DNA of 47,075 nucleotides from NCBI GenBank assembly GCA_905479295.1, contig CAJQLY010000002.1:71812-118886 (forward strand), read 5' to 3'. Both the position numbers and the translations under genes were made by a program. Source of the stretch: an uncultured Gammaproteobacteria bacterium (GTDB taxonomy: Bacteria > Pseudomonadota > Gammaproteobacteria > UBA4575). This document shows, in pieces, positions 31,386 through 47,028 of this stretch; positions within the stretch are counted from its first letter, which is position 1, and the number at the start of each line of letters is the position of its first letter. Under the pieces are notes generated by a model. It saw only the letters and a list, made by a program, of their open reading frames with translations, was not told where the DNA came from and ran no database searches.

Positions 31386-31418
31386 ATGGTCGCTTAGCAG
31401 GCTTTGCTAGGCGACCAT
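31386..31418 (+). terminator. Hairpin after the hypothetical exported protein
   Basis: ATGGTCGC..TAGCA ggctt TGCTA.GCGACCAT inverted repeat just after the CDS stop; short T run only. Confidence 0.55.
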
Positions 31419-31569: not shown

Positions 31570-32820
31570 ATGTTCTCTATTTGGTTCAGCACAAAGATAC
31601 GTAACCCCCTGCAAATATTGGTGACCTTTCGTTCAGTCGCCATCCTCGGGCAGATAGTCGCCGTTAGCTTGGCTCAGCTGGTGTTTAACTTTCCCCTGAA
31701 TATAGTCGGTATCGTTAGTGTGTTACTGAGTATGAGCATGATTAATCTCTATACTTGGCAAGTGGCAAAGACGGTAGCAGAGGCCTCTTCTTTAGTTATC
31801 TTCGCTCAGTTACTGATTGATCTCGCTGCATTAACTGCTATCTTCTATTTCTCGGGTGGCGCAACTAATCCATTTGTTTCAATGTACTTATTGCCACTAG
31901 CGATGGGTGCAGTTCTACTAGCTCAACAATGGGTCTGGTTTTTAACCTTGATCGGTGTTGTTGTTTATTCGCTATTGATGTGGATGTTCCCCTCAGAGCA
32001 CATGCAGCATATGGGGCAGTCTTTCAACCAACATGTTATGGGTATGTGGTTGAGCTTTCTTATCAGTGCCATTGTGATCGCCTATTTTGTTTTACAAATG
32101 CGTAATGCCCTACGTGAGAAAGAAGAGCAACTAGCTATTGCTAGAGAGCAGACCATACGTGATGAAAAGCTGATCTCACTTGGTGCGCTAGCTGCTAGTA
32201 CGGCGCATGAGCTAGGTACACCATTAGCCACGATACAATTGTTACTGGATGACCTGAATGAAAATGACATCAGCAGTCAACAGATAGACTTATTATTGAG
32301 TCAAGTTGCACGCTGTAAAAAAGCCTTATTTGAGATGTCGAACTTGGCTGGCAGTGAAGAAATCAAAAAAGGCGCACTGATTGAAGTGCATGAGTATTTA
32401 GAAGGGTTGATGCATGATTGGCAAAGTCAGCGACCTAATGTGAAAGTTAGTAGTCAATTGACTGGCCCTGTGACTACAGCAGTGATTGCTGAGAATGCCT
32501 TGAGTAAGGCTTTAGTCAATCTCTTAGATAACGCTGCTGATGCTTCACCAGATGCAGTGCGTGTTACGGCGCAATGGGATGAGCATAAGCTACAGCTGAT
32601 GATTATTAATGAAGGTGGCAAGCTGAGTAATGAAGCCCTGAGCAAGATTGGTAGTAAACCCTTCAGTAATAAGCTTGATGGCATCGGTATTGGTGCCTTT
32701 TTGGCACATGAGATTGTGCGTCGTTTAGATGGTGAAATCGTACTAGCCAAAGGTGAACAGGGTGGCCTGGAGACAACTATAAGACTACCCCTGCTAAAAA
32801 AACATCAAATCAGACGGTGA
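31570..32820 (+). CDS. regB: RegB/PrrB/ActS-type redox sensor histidine kinase
   Basis: Six-TM N-terminus, quinone-site motif GGATNPF, H-box STAHELGTPLATIQ, redox-box cysteine in SQVARCKKAL. Confidence 0.88.
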   Translation: MFSIWFSTKIRNPLQILVTFRSVAILGQIVAVSLAQLVFNFPLNIVGIVSVLLSMSMINLYTWQVAKTVAEASSLVIFAQLLIDLAALTAIFYFSGGATNPFVSMYLLPLAMGAVLLAQQWVWFLTLIGVVVYSLLMWMFPSEHMQHMGQSFNQHVMGMWLSFLISAIVIAYFVLQMRNALREKEEQLAIAREQTIRDEKLISLGALAASTAHELGTPLATIQLLLDDLNENDISSQQIDLLLSQVARCKKALFEMSNLAGSEEIKKGALIEVHEYLEGLMHDWQSQRPNVKVSSQLTGPVTTAVIAENALSKALVNLLDNAADASPDAVRVTAQWDEHKLQLMIINEGGKLSNEALSKIGSKPFSNKLDGIGIGAFLAHEIVRRLDGEIVLAKGEQGGLETTIRLPLLKKHQIRR

Positions 32821-32839
32821 TGGTGGAGTCAGCTGAGTA

Positions 32840-33367
32840 ATGACTAAAAAAATACTGATCGTTGATGACGATGAAACCTTCTGCGAGGTCTTGGCGTTGG
32901 CCCTATCAAAGCGAGATTATGATGTCAGCCGTGCACATCAAATAAAAGACGTAGAAGCTATCGAGAATTTAGCCGAATACCCCTATGCCGTGGTTGATCT
33001 GCGACTCGGTACGGAGTCAGGATTAAATGTCATTGACTATTTAATGGCTGCTAATGCCGATATGAGTATCGTTATGTTGACCGCCTACTCGAGCATTGCA
33101 ACCGCGGTCGAGGCAGTGAAGAAGGGTGCGATTAATTACTTAAATAAACCGGCTAGTGTCGAAGAGATTATAGATAAGCTTGAAAACACAGGTAGCGAGG
33201 AAGTTGCAGTAGAAGAATCTCCACTTTCTGTTCGACGCTTAGAATGGGAACATCTACAAAAAGTATTACTGGAGCATGATGGTAATATTTCTGCTGCTGC
33301 CCGTGCGCTCAATATGCATCGCAGAACGCTACAAAGAAAACTCAGTAAACGGCCAGTTAAGCACTAA
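32840..33367 (+). CDS. regA: RegA/PrrA/ActR-type response regulator
   Basis: Receiver ILIVDDDETFCEVLALAL, VDLRLGTESGLNVI, Fis-like HTH GNISAAARALNMHRRTLQRKLSKRP; follows regB. Confidence 0.9.
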   Translation: MTKKILIVDDDETFCEVLALALSKRDYDVSRAHQIKDVEAIENLAEYPYAVVDLRLGTESGLNVIDYLMAANADMSIVMLTAYSSIATAVEAVKKGAINYLNKPASVEEIIDKLENTGSEEVAVEESPLSVRRLEWEHLQKVLLEHDGNISAAARALNMHRRTLQRKLSKRPVKH

Positions 33368-34912: not shown

Positions 34913-34941
34913 TTGGGTCAGATTAAATCAATCTGACCCAA
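34913..34941. terminator. Perfect 12-bp-arm palindrome between convergent genes (terminator and/or REP-like element)
   Basis: TTGGGTCAGATT AAATC AATCTGACCCAA. Confidence 0.7.
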
Positions 34942-34946
34942 GTGAT

Positions 34947-35804
34947 TTAATCTAAGCCCTGCGCAATTTCAAACACTTGTTTGGCATCTAGCACTTGGTC
35001 GTTGCTTTTGAATAGCTGGCCGATGCAGGCGCGGTGTAGGCGTAGTTTGAGTGCGCCGATACCGATACCACCAAAAATCTTCTTACCGAAGCGATCGGTG
35101 TTGTTATCCATCATGTCGATGCCTTCAAAGCCCAGTGGTGGGGCAGTATTGACGTCGGCTAGCACTTCTAGCGTTGGGTGCTGTTGCCAGTGGTCGGCAC
35201 GGAGTAATTGGATACCAGTTTTGCCGGCACCAAAGACAATGTGTGCGCCATCTAGGGCAGCGGCGATAGAATCGTCGTCAGAGGCCACCATTGGCTCCAG
35301 GTCGACATCAAACTTTTCTTTCATCAACTGACATGACTGCTTAGAACGATCAAGCTGACGCGATGTCAGGCGGACATTAGCGCCCATCATGGCGAGCATG
35401 ACAGCGGCACGTTGACCGACTGGACCGGTACCAGCGAGGACGACGGCAGTCTTGCCAGCAACATCAACGTTACGCGTAATCAGTGCGACACCGGCAGCAG
35501 CGGTGGTGTTGCAACCATTGCTATCGAGCATCACTGAGACACGGAATTTCTGGAAAAAGATCTTTTGCACAGCAGCCAATAGTTCTTGCCCAGCGGCTAG
35601 GTCACTACCACCAATGAAGAGGGCAGTATTCTTCTTATCTTTTGGTGCACGAGTGTAGATCGCGCCTTCAACTAGGGGATGACAGTTTTCAGGGGTGACA
35701 CCGGCTAACTGAGTCAGCTGATCAGCACCACCATCATAGGCAACTACGGTGTCAAAGACACTGGCAATTGGGTCAGTATCAAAATGGAATAATAATTTTT
35801 TCAT
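34947..35804 (-). CDS. mtdA: NADP-dependent methylene-tetrahydrofolate/methylene-tetrahydromethanopterin dehydrogenase
   Basis: KKLLFHFDTDPIASVFDTVVAYDGGADQ, MLDSNGCNTTAAAGVALI, AVVLAGTGPVGQRAAVMLA, KLRLHRACIGQLF. Confidence 0.93.
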   Translation of the reverse strand: MKKLLFHFDTDPIASVFDTVVAYDGGADQLTQLAGVTPENCHPLVEGAIYTRAPKDKKNTALFIGGSDLAAGQELLAAVQKIFFQKFRVSVMLDSNGCNTTAAAGVALITRNVDVAGKTAVVLAGTGPVGQRAAVMLAMMGANVRLTSRQLDRSKQSCQLMKEKFDVDLEPMVASDDDSIAAALDGAHIVFGAGKTGIQLLRADHWQQHPTLEVLADVNTAPPLGFEGIDMMDNNTDRFGKKIFGGIGIGALKLRLHRACIGQLFKSNDQVLDAKQVFEIAQGLD

Positions 35805-35833
35805 GGTTTTTTATACTCGTCTATCGGGCTGAT

Positions 35834-38611
35834 TTAACCGGTCCAACCCAAGCCAGCTGCTACGCAGTTGATCGAGAGTAGTAGTGAGACCAAGGTATTT
35901 TGATCACCTTTCTTGCCATCAGCTTGGCCAGCGCGGAATTGTTTCACTAGCTTCACTTGCTCTAAGCCAACCTGCTTGATGCCGTGAAGACGTGCATCCA
36001 TGTTCTTACGGAAGATCGGGAAGCGCTCACAGAGACTTTCTTCCTTGGTGATGGCCAATAACATCTTCTCGGCTAGGTCACGCTCTTTTGTGATCATGTC
36101 GAGGATTTCGTTACCAGCGGTTTGATCATCCACTAAAGTGCCGTATTCAGAGGCAATCTCAAGGTCGACTAAGAACATGGTTTTTTCAATATTGTCGATC
36201 ATCAGACGGAAGATCTGACTCTTTTCAAACATCTCGGCCAGGATCGCTTCGCCTTGCTCGCCACGGACACTGATGATCTGATTGATGGCAGAACCAAAGC
36301 CATACCAGCCAGTGATCATGAGACGGTTTTGAGTCCATGCAAATACCCATGGAATGGCACGTAGATCATCTAAGCTGGCAGCGCCAAAGCGCCGTGCTGG
36401 GCGTGAGCCGATCTTCATTAGTGTTAGTTCTTCTACTGGGCTTGCTGAAGAGTAGAAGTCGACTAGTCCGGGATGATCCACTAGGCCACGGTAGGCAACC
36501 ATAGAGGTGCCAGCGAGGGCTTCTAAGACTTCATCATAGGCTGGACGATTTTGTGCATCGTCTTCACCAGCAGAGAATAGGGTATGAGATAAGACACTGG
36601 CAGCGAGCAATTCAATCTGCTGCTCAGCAACACCACGGTTAGCATATTTACCAGAGACCACTTCACCCTGCTCGGTAACACGCATACGACCATTAACAGT
36701 AGAGGCAGGCTGGGCAGCAATAGCACGACCAGCTGGTGCACCACCGCGAGAAACTGAACCACCACGACCATGGAAGAATGAAATCTGCACACCATGATTT
36801 TGACCTGTTTGATAGATCTTGGTCTGTGCCTTACTGACTTCCCAAGTGGAGCAGAGGTAACCGCCATCCTTGTTTGAGTCGGAGTAGCCAACCATGATTT
36901 CTTGATGGCCACCGAGTTGATTGATGGTGCGCTGTACTAGTGGAACATCTAATAGGTTTTCTAGAATTTCAGGGCCGTTACGTAAATCCTCAATAGTTTC
37001 TAGTAATGGTACAACTTGAATACGGCAAGACTCAATCGCTTGACTATCTGTGAACAAACCAGCGTATTTTGCTAGTAGGTAAACACCAAGGATGTCATCG
37101 CTAGACTGGGTCATACTTAAGATAAAGACGCCAAAGGCATCGCGATCGATTGTGTTTTGAATGGTATCGATCAAGCGCAGTAGATCCATAGTAGCTACGC
37201 TGCTTTCGCTTAAGTTGGTGAAGCTTGGTAATTCTTCTAATGGCTCTTTCAGCGCATCGAGTAACCATTGATGCCATTCTGCAGAATCTTTCTCTGGCAT
37301 CTTATCGCCATCACTGTGTTGCGCAGTCCAAATCTCTTCCAAGGCGAGAGTGGTGATGGTTGAGTTCTGACGTAGGTCTAGGCTCACTGTGTGAAAACCA
37401 AAGGCTTCAACAGTGTGACGGAAAGGGCTGACATACTGACGGCATAGTGATTGGCACTGCGCTGCTTCTAGGCCTTCTTCGATTACTCGTAGGTCATTCG
37501 CAAACTCATCAGCAGATGGGTAGGCCTGTACGTCTGTACTATCGCCGGCAAGCTGTAGCAGATTTGCATTGAGTCGTTTGCCGATGCAATAGCATAACTG
37601 GCGGAAGACTTCGCCTGGGTTACGCGACTTCATGGTTTCTGCTTCGTTACTGTGCTTGAGGATAGCCTCTAGTTTTTCATTGAAGCTCTTTGGTAGATCA
37701 GTGAAGTTCTTTGAAATACTGAGGTAAGAGCCCATCGCATTGACCTTTTCAACATAGTATTCCATGGTCGCTTTGGCCGTTGTTTTGACGGCGTGCTCAG
37801 TAACCTCGTTAGTAACGAACGGATTACCATCACGGTCACCACCAATCCAAGAGCCAAAGCTAAAGAAGGCTGGGACGTTGAAGCTATGCTCAGGGTAATG
37901 ATCATTCAAGGCCTGTTCTAGCTCGCCATAGAGTTCATTCACACCTTGATAGAGTGATTCTTTAAAGAAGTGGATGCCCCACTCAACTTCATTTTGTACA
38001 GAAGGCTTTTCTAAGCGAATCTCACCAGTTAACCAAAGTAGGTCGATTTCATTGGTGATGGTTTGCTTAATAACCGTGCGCTCATGTGGCGTCCAACGGT
38101 CTTGCTCTAGCTTCTTCAGTAAGAGGTAGATACGACGGTGAATCTCAAGCACGGTGACACGCTTGGCTTCAGTCGGGTGCGCAGTAATAACTGGGCTGAT
38201 CGAGGCGTTATCTAGTACACCTTGTAACTCATCTGCAGCGATACCTTGGCGTGCTGCCTGTGAAATTACTTGGGCAAACGTCCCTGGGACTTCAGTGTGA
38301 CCAATCTCAGATTCGATTGAGCGTAGATGACGTACATTAGAATTCTGTTCGACGATAGATAACAGCTGGAACCAAATACCATAGGCCTGCAGCGCATAAG
38401 TCATGACATCCTGGTTGGATTCACGTAGCTCCTGCTTGCCGAGCAAGGTATTTTCGATGTCTGGACAACGTTTTTGCACGACCTCGAGTAGGCAGTTGAA
38501 CAGTAACTGCGCAACTTCCTCACGATACTGTGAGGTGTGTGAGGCGATATCTGAACTATTAGATACCTTGAAAAAACCAGTCCATCCGACTGAATTGCTT
38601 TGCTTTGACAT
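35834..38611 (-). CDS. ppc: Phosphoenolpyruvate carboxylase
   Basis: VITAHPTEAKRVTVLEIHRR, SWIGGDRDGNPFVT, VGYSDSNKDGGYL, FFHGRGGSVSRGGAPAGRAI, RAIPWVFAWTQNRLMITGWYGFGSA. Confidence 0.96.
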   Translation of the reverse strand: MSKQSNSVGWTGFFKVSNSSDIASHTSQYREEVAQLLFNCLLEVVQKRCPDIENTLLGKQELRESNQDVMTYALQAYGIWFQLLSIVEQNSNVRHLRSIESEIGHTEVPGTFAQVISQAARQGIAADELQGVLDNASISPVITAHPTEAKRVTVLEIHRRIYLLLKKLEQDRWTPHERTVIKQTITNEIDLLWLTGEIRLEKPSVQNEVEWGIHFFKESLYQGVNELYGELEQALNDHYPEHSFNVPAFFSFGSWIGGDRDGNPFVTNEVTEHAVKTTAKATMEYYVEKVNAMGSYLSISKNFTDLPKSFNEKLEAILKHSNEAETMKSRNPGEVFRQLCYCIGKRLNANLLQLAGDSTDVQAYPSADEFANDLRVIEEGLEAAQCQSLCRQYVSPFRHTVEAFGFHTVSLDLRQNSTITTLALEEIWTAQHSDGDKMPEKDSAEWHQWLLDALKEPLEELPSFTNLSESSVATMDLLRLIDTIQNTIDRDAFGVFILSMTQSSDDILGVYLLAKYAGLFTDSQAIESCRIQVVPLLETIEDLRNGPEILENLLDVPLVQRTINQLGGHQEIMVGYSDSNKDGGYLCSTWEVSKAQTKIYQTGQNHGVQISFFHGRGGSVSRGGAPAGRAIAAQPASTVNGRMRVTEQGEVVSGKYANRGVAEQQIELLAASVLSHTLFSAGEDDAQNRPAYDEVLEALAGTSMVAYRGLVDHPGLVDFYSSASPVEELTLMKIGSRPARRFGAASLDDLRAIPWVFAWTQNRLMITGWYGFGSAINQIISVRGEQGEAILAEMFEKSQIFRLMIDNIEKTMFLVDLEIASEYGTLVDDQTAGNEILDMITKERDLAEKMLLAITKEESLCERFPIFRKNMDARLHGIKQVGLEQVKLVKQFRAGQADGKKGDQNTLVSLLLSINCVAAGLGWTG

Positions 38612-38655
38612 AGATTGCGCTCTAACTCTGTTAATTCAATTTGGCTTTCCCTAAC

Positions 38656-38688
38656 ATATAAAAGGAGGCGCGAAGCCTCCTTTTATAT
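38656..38688. terminator. 14-bp perfect-stem terminator-like hairpin upstream of ppc
   Basis: ATATAAAAGGAGGC gcgaa GCCTCCTTTTATAT with A/T-rich arms. Confidence 0.8.
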
Positions 38689-38708
38689 AGCAGCGAGTAA
38701 GAAATTGT

Positions 38709-38739
38709 CCCTAAACCAAGGCTTAAGCGAGGTTTAGGG
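38709..38739. repeat. 9-bp-arm inverted repeat after hprA
   Basis: CCCTAAACC aaggcttaagcga GGTTTAGGG. Confidence 0.65.
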
Positions 38740-38757
38740 GCCGTTTTCAGTGCTGAT

Positions 38758-39729
38758 TTATACCAGCTTGTCGCGTGGTGCCTTTCCGGCAAAAAATGCC
38801 GCAAGGTTTTCTAACACACGCTCACCCATAGCAATACGTGTTTCCAATGACGCACTACCTAGGTGAGGTAGTAGGACTGCATTTTCACAGTCTAGGAAAC
38901 CCGGATCTAGCTTAGGCTCACCTTCAAACACATCCAGACCTGCACCAGCGATGGTGCCGTTCTTAAGTGCGCTAATCAGGGCTTGGTTGTCGACTACGTC
39001 GCCACGCGCTGAATTCACTAGAATAGCGGTAGGCTTCATCATCTTGATGCGCTCTTCGTTGATCAAATGGTAAGTAGACTCACCACCTGGGCAATGCAAA
39101 GAAACGAAGTCAGCTTGTGCTAGGACTTCTTCTGCTGACATGTGAACAGCACCAAAACGATTCATTACTTCCTGTGAAGGTGGGTAAGGATCGCTAAAGA
39201 TGATCTTCATGCCAAAACCGAAGTGAGCACGTTGTGCCATCGCTTGTGCGATACGGCCAAAGCCGATGCAACCTAAGGTCTTACCGGTTACTTTAGTCGC
39301 GATCATGTGCGTTGGACGCCAACCGGTCCACTCACCATTACGTAGATGACGCTCGCCTTCACCGATACGACGTGCCGCTGATAACAGCAAGCCCATCGCG
39401 ATGTCAGCAGTACAGTCAGTCAGTACTTCTGGTGTGTTACTTACGGTCAAACCAGCAGTTTCTGCTGCTTTTAAGTCGATATGGTTATAACCAACACCGT
39501 AACTACCAATCATTTTAGCAGTGATGCCATCGGCACCGAGTACTGCAGCATTGACTGGGTCAGTTACTGTTGGGCAAAACGCATCACAGTTACGCAGTGC
39601 ATCTTGCATCTGCTCAACGGTCATCGCTTCGTCGCTTTCGTTCAATTGAACGTCATATAGTTCTTTTAGCTGAGCTTCAACTTGCTCAGGCCATTTGCGC
39701 GATATGATTACTTTAGGCTTACTCATCAA
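38758..39729 (-). CDS. hprA: Hydroxypyruvate reductase / glycerate dehydrogenase (D-isomer 2-hydroxyacid dehydrogenase)
   Basis: GSYGVGYNHIDLKAAETAGLTVSNTPEVLTDCTADIAMGLL, LGCIGFGRIAQAMAQRA, SLHCPGG; sits in the serine-cycle cluster. Confidence 0.88.
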   Translation of the reverse strand: MMSKPKVIISRKWPEQVEAQLKELYDVQLNESDEAMTVEQMQDALRNCDAFCPTVTDPVNAAVLGADGITAKMIGSYGVGYNHIDLKAAETAGLTVSNTPEVLTDCTADIAMGLLLSAARRIGEGERHLRNGEWTGWRPTHMIATKVTGKTLGCIGFGRIAQAMAQRAHFGFGMKIIFSDPYPPSQEVMNRFGAVHMSAEEVLAQADFVSLHCPGGESTYHLINEERIKMMKPTAILVNSARGDVVDNQALISALKNGTIAGAGLDVFEGEPKLDPGFLDCENAVLLPHLGSASLETRIAMGERVLENLAAFFAGKAPRDKLV

Positions 39730-39736
39730 TTTATTC

Positions 39737-40624
39737 CTATAAGTCTTTTAGTACTCGTTCCATGGTGACACCTAGATCCGATGGAGTTGGAGCAACAACA
39801 ACACCTGCTTCTTCAAGTAGTTTCACTTTTTCAGCAGCACTTTCACCAACACCTGAAACAATTGCTCCAGCATGGCCCATAGTACGACCCTTAGGTGCAG
39901 TTAAGCCGGCGATGTAGGCAACCAATGGCTTAGTCATGTGATTTTTGAAGTATTCAGCTGCTTCCGCTTCTTGTGGACCGCCGATCTCACCAATCATCAT
40001 CACTGCTTTAGTATCTGGATCATTTTCGAAGTGCTCAAGGATATCGCGATGCGAACTACCATTGATTGGGTCACCACCGATACCAACTGAAGTCGTAATA
40101 CCAATACCCAGTGCCTTCATTTGTGCAGCTGCCTCGTAACCGAGGGTGCCAGAACGACCGACAATGCCGACCTCTCCTTGCATGTAAATGTGACCTGGCA
40201 TAATACCTAGCATGGCTTTTCCTGGGCTGATGGTGCCTGCACAGTTAGGACCGGTTAGGACCATGCGATCTTCTTTCTTGTAACGGTACATGTAGCGCTT
40301 AACCGTCATCATGTCTTGTGCTGGGATACCATCGGTAATCGCAACACAGTACTTAATACCAGCATCGGCTGCTTCCATGATCGAATCTGCAGCAAAGGCT
40401 GAAGGTACAAAGATAATACTAGCTTCTGCACCAGCTTCATCTACTGCTTCTTTAACCGTGTTGAAAACCGGCTTGCCCATGTGTTCTTGTCCGCCTTTAC
40501 CTGGCGTAACACCACCTACAAGGTTAGTGCCGTATTCCATCATCTCTTCAGCGTGGAAGGTACCAATCTTGCCGGTGAAACCCTGTACGATGACGCGGGT
40601 TTTTTCATTTAGTAATACAGTCAT
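39737..40624 (-). CDS. mtkB: Malate-CoA ligase (malate thiokinase) subunit beta, SucD-like
   Basis: TRVIVQGFTGKIGTFHAEEMMEYGTNLVGGVTPGKGG, GPNCAGTISPGKAMLGIMPG, GRSGTLGYEA; next to mcl/mtkA/hpr. Confidence 0.9.
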   Translation of the reverse strand: MTVLLNEKTRVIVQGFTGKIGTFHAEEMMEYGTNLVGGVTPGKGGQEHMGKPVFNTVKEAVDEAGAEASIIFVPSAFAADSIMEAADAGIKYCVAITDGIPAQDMMTVKRYMYRYKKEDRMVLTGPNCAGTISPGKAMLGIMPGHIYMQGEVGIVGRSGTLGYEAAAQMKALGIGITTSVGIGGDPINGSSHRDILEHFENDPDTKAVMMIGEIGGPQEAEAAEYFKNHMTKPLVAYIAGLTAPKGRTMGHAGAIVSGVGESAAEKVKLLEEAGVVVAPTPSDLGVTMERVLKDL

Positions 40625-40638
40625 TTGTCTCTCCCTAC

Positions 40639-41814
40639 TTAAGCGCCGACCGCTTTGTTACGGGCTTCTACTGCTTTTTCAGCAGCTTCCGCTAAAGTAT
40701 TTGCAGTGATAATCGGTAAGCCACTTTCGGCTATGATCTTTTGGCCTAGCTCTTCGTTGGTACCGGATAAGCGACAAATTAATGGCACTTTGACGTCCAC
40801 TTGCTTGTAGGCTTGAACCACACCTTCAGCAATCCAATCACAACGGTTAATGCCAGCGAAGATATTGACTAGGAAAGCTTTAACGCCTTCATCGGCCAAT
40901 ACTAATTCAAAGGCACGTGCTACACGCTCAGGTGATGCACCACCACCGATGTCTAGGAAGTTGGCTGGGTTGCCACCCTTGTGCTTAAGCATGTCGAGTG
41001 AAGCCATTGCTAGGCCAGCACCATTAATCATGCAGCCGATGTCGCCATCGAGGCCAACGTAGCTTAGGCCATAATCCGATGCTGCAGACTCACGTGGATC
41101 TTCTTGAGATTTATCACGAAGTTCAGCGATCTGAGGGCGACGGAATAAGGCATTAGTGTCGAAAGCCATCTTAGCGTCTAATGCGCGGATGTGACCGTCA
41201 CCAGTCACAACTAATGGGTTGATTTCAACCATAGTTGCATCTAACTCACGGAAAGAACGGTAAGCACCTTTCAGTGTTTGTACCGCTTGGCTGATCATTT
41301 TTGGCTCTAAGCCTAAATTGAACGCAATTTCACGTGCTTGAAAATCGGTGAGACCAACAGTCGGCTCGATTTCAGTACGCATAATAGCGTCTGGGTTCTT
41401 GTCAGCAACCTCTTCAATCTCCATACCACCTTCAGTAGAAGAGATAATGGCGATGCGTTGCTTTACACGATCTAGTACTAGACCAACGTAGAGCTCGCGC
41501 TGAATATCAGTCGCTTCTTCAATGTAGAGGCGATAGATAACCTTGCCCTGTGGGCCAGTTTGGTGAGTTACTAGGGTCTTACCTAGTAATTCAGTCGCTG
41601 CAGCCAGCACTTCTTCTTCAGATGTGCAGAACTTGATGCCACCAGCTTTGCCGCGGGCACCTGAATGAATTTGTGCCTTTACGACCCATTTGTCGCCACC
41701 AATTTCTTTGGCGCGATATACCGCTTGCTCAGGACTGTAAGCTAGTCCGCCTTGCGAAATACTAACTCCGAACTTGGAGAGCAGCTCTTTTGCTTGATAC
41801 TCGTGAATGTCCAC
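40639..41814 (-). CDS. mtkA: Malate-CoA ligase (malate thiokinase) subunit alpha, SucC-like
   Basis: [78 protein letters not shown] start at 41814 preceded by GGAGGAG; track start at 41880 is too long. Confidence 0.92.
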
Positions 41815-41855
41815 GGCATCTCCTCCCATATAAAGTGATTTACAATAAAAAATAT

Positions 41856-41878
41856 GCGGGCGGCCCGAGGCCACCCGC
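41856..41878 (-). terminator. Terminator-like hairpin with U-rich tail in the mtkA 5' leader
   Basis: Minus strand: GCGGGTGGC ctcgg GCCGCCCGC followed by ATATTTTTT; 41 nt upstream of the GTG start. Confidence 0.75.
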
Positions 41879-41920
41879 AAAATCTGGTAACGCTAGTTAC
41901 TTACAAAATGTACTAACTAA

Positions 41921-41974
41921 ACAACGCTTGGGGTGTTATGGCGTATGAACTCTACGGCTCATATACAGCGTTGT
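41921..41974 (-). other. Nested stem-loop element in the mcl-mtkA intergenic region (candidate leader RNA)
   Basis: Outer 8-bp arms ACAACGCT/AGCGTTGT enclose TATGA/TCATA; precedes the leader terminator hairpin. Confidence 0.4.
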
Positions 41975-41977
41975 GAC

Positions 41978-42007
41978 ATTTTATGGGCACCTTGCAGGTG
42001 AACGCAA
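41978..42007 (-). promoter_or_regulatory. Possible sigma70-type promoter for mtkA
   Basis: Minus strand TTGCGT - 18 bp - TAAAAT just upstream of the nested stem. Confidence 0.3.
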
Positions 42008-42013
42008 GGTGCC
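41986..42013. repeat. 10-bp perfect inverted repeat after mcl
   Basis: GGCACCTTGC aggtgaac GCAAGGTGCC, 18 bp beyond the mcl stop; no T-run on either side. Confidence 0.7.
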
Positions 42014-45468: not shown

Positions 45469-46392
45469 CTACGCTGCAGGCTGCTTATCAGGATGCAGGT
45501 AGATGAAACTCTTACCTAGACGACCACCGTAGTTACCGGCAGAGATCATTAGCAGACCTTCGGTGTCTTTCGACGCATTAATAGCTGCTTGGGTTGCCTT
45601 GATGATGCAATCCATGTCGCGGCCATTCATGATGATTTCCATGACAGAGTTCACACCTTCAGGTAAGCCATGCTCTACTGTTGGATCATCTTGTAGCAAA
45701 GGACAGAACTTCTCAAAGGTACTCGCAATGGTGAAGTCATAGTCACTACCGGCTTTTGAGCCACTACCCGCGACACCGCCGGGGAAGGTTGTGATTACGC
45801 CATCAACTGGTGCGATTGCTTCGCAACCCTTCTCTGCCGCTTCTAATGCAGAGTCAGTGTCTTTGCCGAAGAACCATAGATTGCCACCCATTAGGCCATC
45901 AGAACGACCTAAACGACGATCCATGATGTATTCACCACCAAGGATTGGCACCCACCACATTTTGCGGCCAAAACGCTCAATACGTTTTTGGTAGCCGTTA
46001 CCGAAGTAAGCGACTTTACGACCCATGTGGAAGTACTCTTCTGAATCAATCAAGTTAAAGCATGATGCCGTAGGGCAGGTCATGACATTTTGACTAATAC
46101 GGACTAGAGCAGACTTTTCTAGGCGATCATTACGATCTTTCCAGAAACGTGGCACATGCATTTGAACAATAGCGCCTGGGCGACCATCAGGAGTTTCGAA
46201 AGTCTCGTCACCACCTGGGCCTACATAGCGGTCCATGCCTGCTTCACAGTCACATAAAATAGAGCTAGAACCGTTACCTACTGCCGCGTTTACCGCGTGG
46301 TCAACCCACTTACGGTTCTTGGCAGTGATTAAGAACTCAACATATAAGCTCTTAAACGCTTCTGCATAAGTATCATCAATTAACGCACTCAT
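45469..46392 (-). CDS. Ftr/FhcD-like formyltransferase (formylmethanofuran:tetrahydromethanopterin formyltransferase family)
   Basis: LIDDTYAEAF, CDCEAGMDR...ETPDGRPGAIVQ, VMTCPTASCFN, TTFPGGVAGSGSKAGS, ISAGNYGGRLGKSFIYLHP match the Ftr family. Confidence 0.82.
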   Translation of the reverse strand: MSALIDDTYAEAFKSLYVEFLITAKNRKWVDHAVNAAVGNGSSSILCDCEAGMDRYVGPGGDETFETPDGRPGAIVQMHVPRFWKDRNDRLEKSALVRISQNVMTCPTASCFNLIDSEEYFHMGRKVAYFGNGYQKRIERFGRKMWWVPILGGEYIMDRRLGRSDGLMGGNLWFFGKDTDSALEAAEKGCEAIAPVDGVITTFPGGVAGSGSKAGSDYDFTIASTFEKFCPLLQDDPTVEHGLPEGVNSVMEIIMNGRDMDCIIKATQAAINASKDTEGLLMISAGNYGGRLGKSFIYLHPDKQPAA

Positions 46393-47028
46393 TTAGTCTC
46401 TTCCTTGGCCTTCGTAAACAGCATCTTCAGTGACTACTTTGTCCATGTAGACGTCGTGTGGAGCAACAAGAACGTTGTCAAACAACTGTGACTCATAGCC
46501 CATTGCGATTAATGGTGCATCGGCACGTACTTTTTCAAGTAGACGATCATAGTAACCTTGACCATTACCCATACGACCACCGTTACGGTCAAAGCCAACA
46601 CCTGGAACCATAACTAGATCTAGATCGCCTGCTTCAACTTCTTTTGTTGGGTTACCCCACATATCTTTTGGTGGCTCAAGGATGTCCCACTTACCAACAA
46701 CCATCTCTTCCAAGCTTTCCATCCACCATAGGCCAAGCTTGTTGTCGCCATTTTCGTCTTCGGTGCAGTAAGGAACGATAATTTTCTTTTCGCCCTTAGC
46801 TACTTCAGCAAGTAACTCTGGCTTAGTACGTAGCTCAGAACGGCAATCGATGTACCACATGATAGTGTGAGCGTTCTTATATTCTGGTAGCTCAAGAAAA
46901 CGAGCAACCGCTTTCGCGCTGACTTCGTCTTTGTTGTCTTGGGCGTTACGACGATCATATGCTTCACGACGCATCTTGTTCTTGCGTTCCATGATCGCTT
47001 CTAATTCTTCTGGTGTCAGTGACATCAA
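46393..47028 (-). CDS. 5-formyltetrahydrofolate cyclo-ligase-like protein
   Basis: KNKMRREAYDRR N-terminus, DLDLVMVPGVGFDRNGGRMGNGQGYYDRLLEK (5-FCL signature region); stop abuts the ftr-like start with no gap. Confidence 0.85.
   Translation of the reverse strand: MMSLTPEELEAIMERKNKMRREAYDRRNAQDNKDEVSAKAVARFLELPEYKNAHTIMWYIDCRSELRTKPELLAEVAKGEKKIIVPYCTEDENGDNKLGLWWMESLEEMVVGKWDILEPPKDMWGNPTKEVEAGDLDLVMVPGVGFDRNGGRMGNGQGYYDRLLEKVRADAPLIAMGYESQLFDNVLVAPHDVYMDKVVTEDAVYEGQGRD

Follow-up and report, generated by a model that had tools for sequence, protein, structure and literature searches.

Described control of the serine cycle acts at the promoter level, through QscR in Methylorubrum. In the QscR-controlled qsc2 cluster (mtkA-mtkB-ppc-mcl) of Methylorubrum extorquens AM1 and DM4, the transcription starts used on methanol were mapped 31-46 nt before mtkA (PMC9320726). 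The locus considered here lies on the minus strand of a 47,075-nt stretch of DNA (the window) from an uncultured gammaproteobacterium, and it resembles qsc2 in having an apparently regulated promoter of its own just before mtkA. However, the Methylorubrum 5' stretch is too short for a leader of the kind described below and mcl lies downstream, whereas here a predicted leader of ~157 nt with a terminator precedes mtkA and mcl lies upstream. A further likeness is to attenuator leaders that use an intrinsic terminator (trp-type, protein-dependent and riboswitch expression platforms), with which the mtkA leader shares the succession of promoter, structured 5' leader, intrinsic terminator, Shine-Dalgarno (SD) sequence and start codon, although it holds no leader peptide with an SD and no conserved antiterminator was found. 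Additionally, sucA-II (RF01758) and sucC (RF01759), which are cis-regulatory RNA candidates (PMC2864571), stand upstream of related genes, MtkA being a relative of the succinate-CoA ligase beta subunit, but the mtkA leader matches neither family in Rfam. The papers searched, on riboswitch control of malate thiokinase and on attenuation in the serine cycle, give no account of attenuation of a serine-cycle malate thiokinase operon.

The host genome (G000, contig C2) is gammaproteobacterial and 1.15 Mb in size. Its serine-cycle cluster runs on the minus strand from genes for a 5-formyl-THF cyclo-ligase, an FhcD-type formyltransferase, folD, a serine/aspartate-glyoxylate-type aminotransferase and an mcl-like lyase to mtkA, mtkB, a hydroxypyruvate/glyoxylate reductase gene, ppc and an mtdA-like gene, the last of which was named by eye and has no NCBIfam match. 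At the head of this cluster, the FhcD-type formylmethanofuran:H4MPT formyltransferase (45469-47028; NF002554, above cut-off) adjoins the 5-formyltetrahydrofolate cyclo-ligase and folD. Near the serine-cycle genes, the plus strand (31570-33367) encodes a sensor kinase with its apparent response regulator, RegB/RegA (PrrBA)-like by eye, which is a possible regulator. The unit under control is probably mtkA-mtkB-hprA-ppc-mtdA rather than mtkA alone, with internal promoters possible within it. In the direction of transcription, the features of the locus are the following:

41986..42013, minus strand: 10-bp inverted repeat GGCACCTTGC (42013-42004)-N8-GCAAGGTGCC (41995-41986), without a U-run, spanning about -42 to -15
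41978..42007, minus strand: predicted mtkA promoter, -35 TTGCGT (42007-42002), 18-nt spacer, -10 TAAAAT (41983-41978), kept in seven genomes
41921..41974, minus strand: nested 5' domain from the predicted fold, outer stem ACAACGCU (41974-41967) / AGCGUUGU (41928-41921), genus g1 only
41940..41963, minus strand: inner hairpin UAUGAG (41963-41958)-CCGUAGAG-UUCAUA (41949-41944) followed by CGCC, in the same alignment columns as UAAUAA-CCAUAGNN-UUAUUA-CGUC of genus g3
41887..41900, minus strand: small stem GUAAC (41900-41896) / GUUAC (41891-41887), with the g3 counterpart AGUAA/UUACU directly before the terminator
41847..41879, minus strand: predicted intrinsic terminator from the scan, hairpin 41879-41855 (11 pairs, 9 of them G-C) followed by the U-run TATTTTTTAT, with counterparts in g3
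41827-41820, minus strand: SD of mtkA, GGGAGGAG, from the sequence and conserved
41814-41812, minus strand: mtkA start codon GTG, by direct reading
40639..41814, minus strand: mtkA, malate--CoA ligase subunit beta, GTG start (NCBIfam NF010647, 689.8 bits against a cut-off of 604)
34913..41814, minus strand: probable transcription unit mtkA-mtkB-hprA-ppc-mtdA-like, from gene order, NCBIfam families and the terminator 34941-34913 at its end

An earlier, sequence-only reading had proposed most of these parts. The promoter with its 18-nt spacing, and the GC-rich hairpin with a U-run followed by SD and GTG, are present where it placed them, and direct reading of the minus strand likewise recovers the nested stem and the GUAAC/GUUAC stem.

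The order to which the host belongs is represented by one family of 19 genomes in six genera. The genes mcl and mtkA are adjacent in 16 of the 19, in every genus except g5, with gaps of 141-371 nt (the count leaves out G015, whose contig starts shortly before mtkA, G002 and G006). The arrangement of promoter, leader, hairpin with U-run, SD and GTG is common to g1 (G000 and G001) and to the five genomes of g3 (G004, G009, G012, G015 and G017), so that the sequences searched yielded seven leaders of this type, a number too small to test covariation firmly. If transcription is assumed to start 7 nt past the -10 box, the 5'UTR measures 136-158 nt in these two genera and ~157 nt in the window. In genera g2, g4 and g6 (loci L012-L021) mtkA is preceded by another conserved block that resembles a promoter and in most of them reads CCAACAAGAGAGTTTGT ... 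GGCTATAAA, and no terminator was found near the gene; it appears that the regulation of mtkA was rewired inside one family. An imperfect dyad was also seen in the block of these three genera, CCAACAAGAGAGTTTGT ... GAATAGGCTATAAA.

The motif TTGCRY-18-TAAAAT precedes mtkA in all seven genomes of g1 and g3, with a spacer that is constant in length and variable in sequence. This promoter is not listed by a simple sigma-70 scan of the window because TTGCGT matches TTGACA at just three of six positions. The inverted repeat had been tentatively suggested to be an mRNA 3' stabiliser; the 10-bp hairpin without a U-run is indeed there, but since it overlaps the core promoter, a DNA operator is likelier than a stabiliser. 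The 35-nt block made up of dyad and promoter is 97% identical to that of G009, a member of the other genus, and in G015 the two dyad arms vary together. In G012, G004 and G017, all of g3, the dyad pairing is partly or largely decayed and the -35, the -10 and their spacing are intact. The dyad is operator-like and likely acts at the DNA level; a regulator acting on the mtkA promoter may bind it, in which case the site was lost or altered in some members. Within the family, it occurs at no more than one mismatch only at the mtkA locus, and at two mismatches further matches appear elsewhere in other genera. Because the dyad (at no more than one mismatch) and a 29-nt element of g3 leaders, considered below, are confined to mtkA, a regulon could not be drawn.

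A strict terminator scan of both strands of the 47-kb window (at least 7 pairs, at least 5 of them G-C) finds four terminators, at 31386-31418, 45452-45419, 34941-34913 and 41879-41855. The first three begin 5-16 nt after stop codons, and the fourth begins ~150 nt past mcl and ends ~40 nt before mtkA. Two of those next to stop codons are on the minus strand: 45452-45419 closes the formyltransferase gene, and 34941-34913 closes the mtkA-to-mtdA-like unit. The terminator sits 36-42 nt before mtkA in G000, G001, G012, G009 and G015, and G004 and G017 have a hairpin with one mismatch and a long U-run before mtkA. In g3 the terminator stands at the corresponding place with a different stem, in which two pairs have changed on both sides within the genus. 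At 80 mtkA loci of other groups, a scan of the 300 nt before mtkA found no terminator; a scan of this kind at a laxer threshold recovers the terminators of g1 and g3 apart from those of G004 and G017, whose stems carry a mismatch. By sequence comparison, both genera retain the predicted promoter and terminator in this order, and the arrangement is not seen elsewhere.

These findings indicate that the promoter lies upstream of the terminator in the same orientation and that the terminator stands between this promoter and the first gene. Between the terminator and the start codon there are only ~40 nt, too few to accommodate a -35 box outside the terminator, so that read-through is the only route into mtkA and conditional termination is the natural reading. 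We consider it somewhat better than an even bet that the terminator-containing mtkA leader is of the attenuator type, with its own promoter, an operator-like dyad and a ~157-nt untranslated leader with an intrinsic terminator at its end, and the best reading of its distribution is an invention within this lineage. From this arrangement we infer transcription start at this promoter, termination, and its conditionality: RNA polymerase would start near 41971 and transcribe the leader, and would then either stop at about 41854-41847 or continue into mtkA-mtkB and the genes downstream. In this way the terminator would set, and probably condition, expression of the malate-to-malyl-CoA step. Read-through may be favoured by a protein, a ribosome, an sRNA or a metabolite; a metabolite is no likelier than a trans-acting factor or than read-through that is simply partial.

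The hairpin may, however, merely end mcl transcripts, as a constitutive end of the mcl operon from which mtkA is fed by leaky read-through, so that the hairpin sets only the ratio of the two operons and exerts no conditional control. No other strong terminator lies between mcl and mtkA in G000, none was seen in G009 and G015, and no other clear mcl terminator exists in g1 and some g3 genomes. The lack of a competitive antiterminator also speaks for such a constitutive end. When duplex energies were compared with those of dinucleotide shuffles in five genomes (G000, G001, G009, G012 and G015; the G009 stretch began upstream of the leader), the best pairing with the 5' arm of the terminator was matched by 18-75% of shuffles. 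In g1, GGGUG of the terminator 5' arm has a possible partner in CACCC (41935-41931) before the 3' arm is made; shuffles pair equally well, and no such pairing is shared with g3. Nevertheless, all seven genomes have a conserved promoter between mcl and the terminator, for which a simple 3' end would have no use. Furthermore, in G017 mcl has its own terminator directly after it, far upstream of the mtkA promoter, so that mcl and mtkA are separate units there, and yet the second terminator is kept. A constitutive mcl end is judged unlikely, although it is the strongest of the alternatives.

The metabolite-sensing reading, in which the 5' domain or the hairpin with a CCRUAG loop would bind malate, glyoxylate, CoA or a similar metabolite and control the terminator, has to be weighed against the structure and conservation of the leader. 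The order of parts suits such a riboswitch, and so does the stability of the leader, whose fold of -45.0 kcal/mol compares with -29.6 +/- 3.1 for shuffles (z -5.0) and beats all 200 of them; for the entire mcl-mtkA gap, z is -4.1. However, the large ACAACGCU/AGCGUUGU domain has no counterpart in g3 and occurs only in the two g1 genomes, which are 96% identical across the gap and therefore allow no covariation test of it. With a start ~7 nt past the -10 box, near A41971, transcription would miss the first three bases of its outer stem. The GUAAC/GUUAC stem, for its part, competes with UAGUUA/UAACUA, which the fold favours.

The riboswitch reading also draws on the inner hairpin, which holds the same position in both genera. 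Between g1 and g3, 95% of its cells are paired, against at most 50% in slid controls, and two pairs have changed on both sides, which may represent few events because both changes separate the same two lineages. The 29-nt element is present in all five g3 genomes and occurs only before mtkA. A position weight matrix built from g3 places the hairpin in G000 at an offset of 13 nt from the -10 box (11-14 in g3); P is 0.011 for a match anywhere in the leader and 0.0002 for one at the expected offset, and in G001 its best score falls elsewhere than the expected place. A covariance model built from the five g3 leaders matches the window solely at the mtkA leader, with 21.2 bits (E 0.041 in 113 kb) aided by the terminator; it does not find the leader of G001, and across 369 genomes of the class it matches only g3 members. 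The comparison is suggestive of an RNA element shared by g1 and g3, two lineages only, and the hairpin could instead be a DNA site, the region being A/T-rich. Against an aptamer stands also its size, 6 bp with an 8-nt loop, and a U-U mismatch in two of the five g3 genomes. A long-range pairing of the loop CCAUAG with CUGUGG of the start region, tried by eye, forms 6 bp in most g3 genomes and is broken in g1.

Known regulatory classes were considered as well. No Rfam 15 family matches the leader at the gathering threshold, the best score on the minus strand being 16.1 bits for L20_leader against a required 58.7, and at E <= 5 only chance-level scores were obtained, with the sucA-II and sucC families absent. 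The sequence-only reading had recognised no known class. A leader-peptide attenuator was rejected by eye: the g1 open reading frame ATG AGC CGT AGA GTT CAT ACG CCA TAA has no SD, and g3 has no counterpart ATG there. ANTAR-type antiterminator RNAs consist of two hexaloop hairpins with the loop A-N-N-G-N-N. The corresponding loops are CGUAGA and UAGC in g1, and 8 nt and 3-5 nt in g3, and they do not fit.

Taken with the Rfam result and the restriction of the covariance model to g3, a riboswitch appears quite improbable. A narrower version, in which CCRUAG-N6-UACGYC (18 nt) on the 6-bp hairpin, close to the 5' end in both g1 and g3 leaders, is a compact new RNA sensor of a serine-cycle metabolite or of a protein and controls the terminator, with the g1 outer stem as lineage-specific support, is a long shot. 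A separate small RNA of ~120 nt, delimited by the promoter and the terminator and with mtkA control as a by-product, is the least probable reading of all, for although the stretch between them is structured, it is mostly not conserved across the two genera, whereas its place before mtkA is, and no copies occur elsewhere.

The sequence-only reading had called this leader riboswitch- or attenuator-like and had looked to conservation and covariation in relatives. The attenuator half is supported by the order promoter, leader, terminator and SD; the riboswitch aptamer is not supported, given a 5' domain absent from g3 and unmatched in Rfam. Promoter, terminator and order are kept in g1 and g3 and the terminator stem shows compensatory change, while the large 5' domain is found in g1 only. 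As to the ligands it named (malate, glyoxylate, glycine, CoA or folate), nothing found points to any of them. The term attenuator-like is reasonable because the five g3 genomes have the same order despite a mostly different leader, and because the changes in the terminator stem are compensatory. Judged by its sequence, this is an ordinary kind of regulatory leader in an unusual position, present in two genera as far as searched. Currently a plausible attenuator, the mtkA leader offers a small, defined sequence for tests; if real, it would add a second level of regulation, arisen within one gammaproteobacterial family, to the step that commits malate to C1 assimilation.
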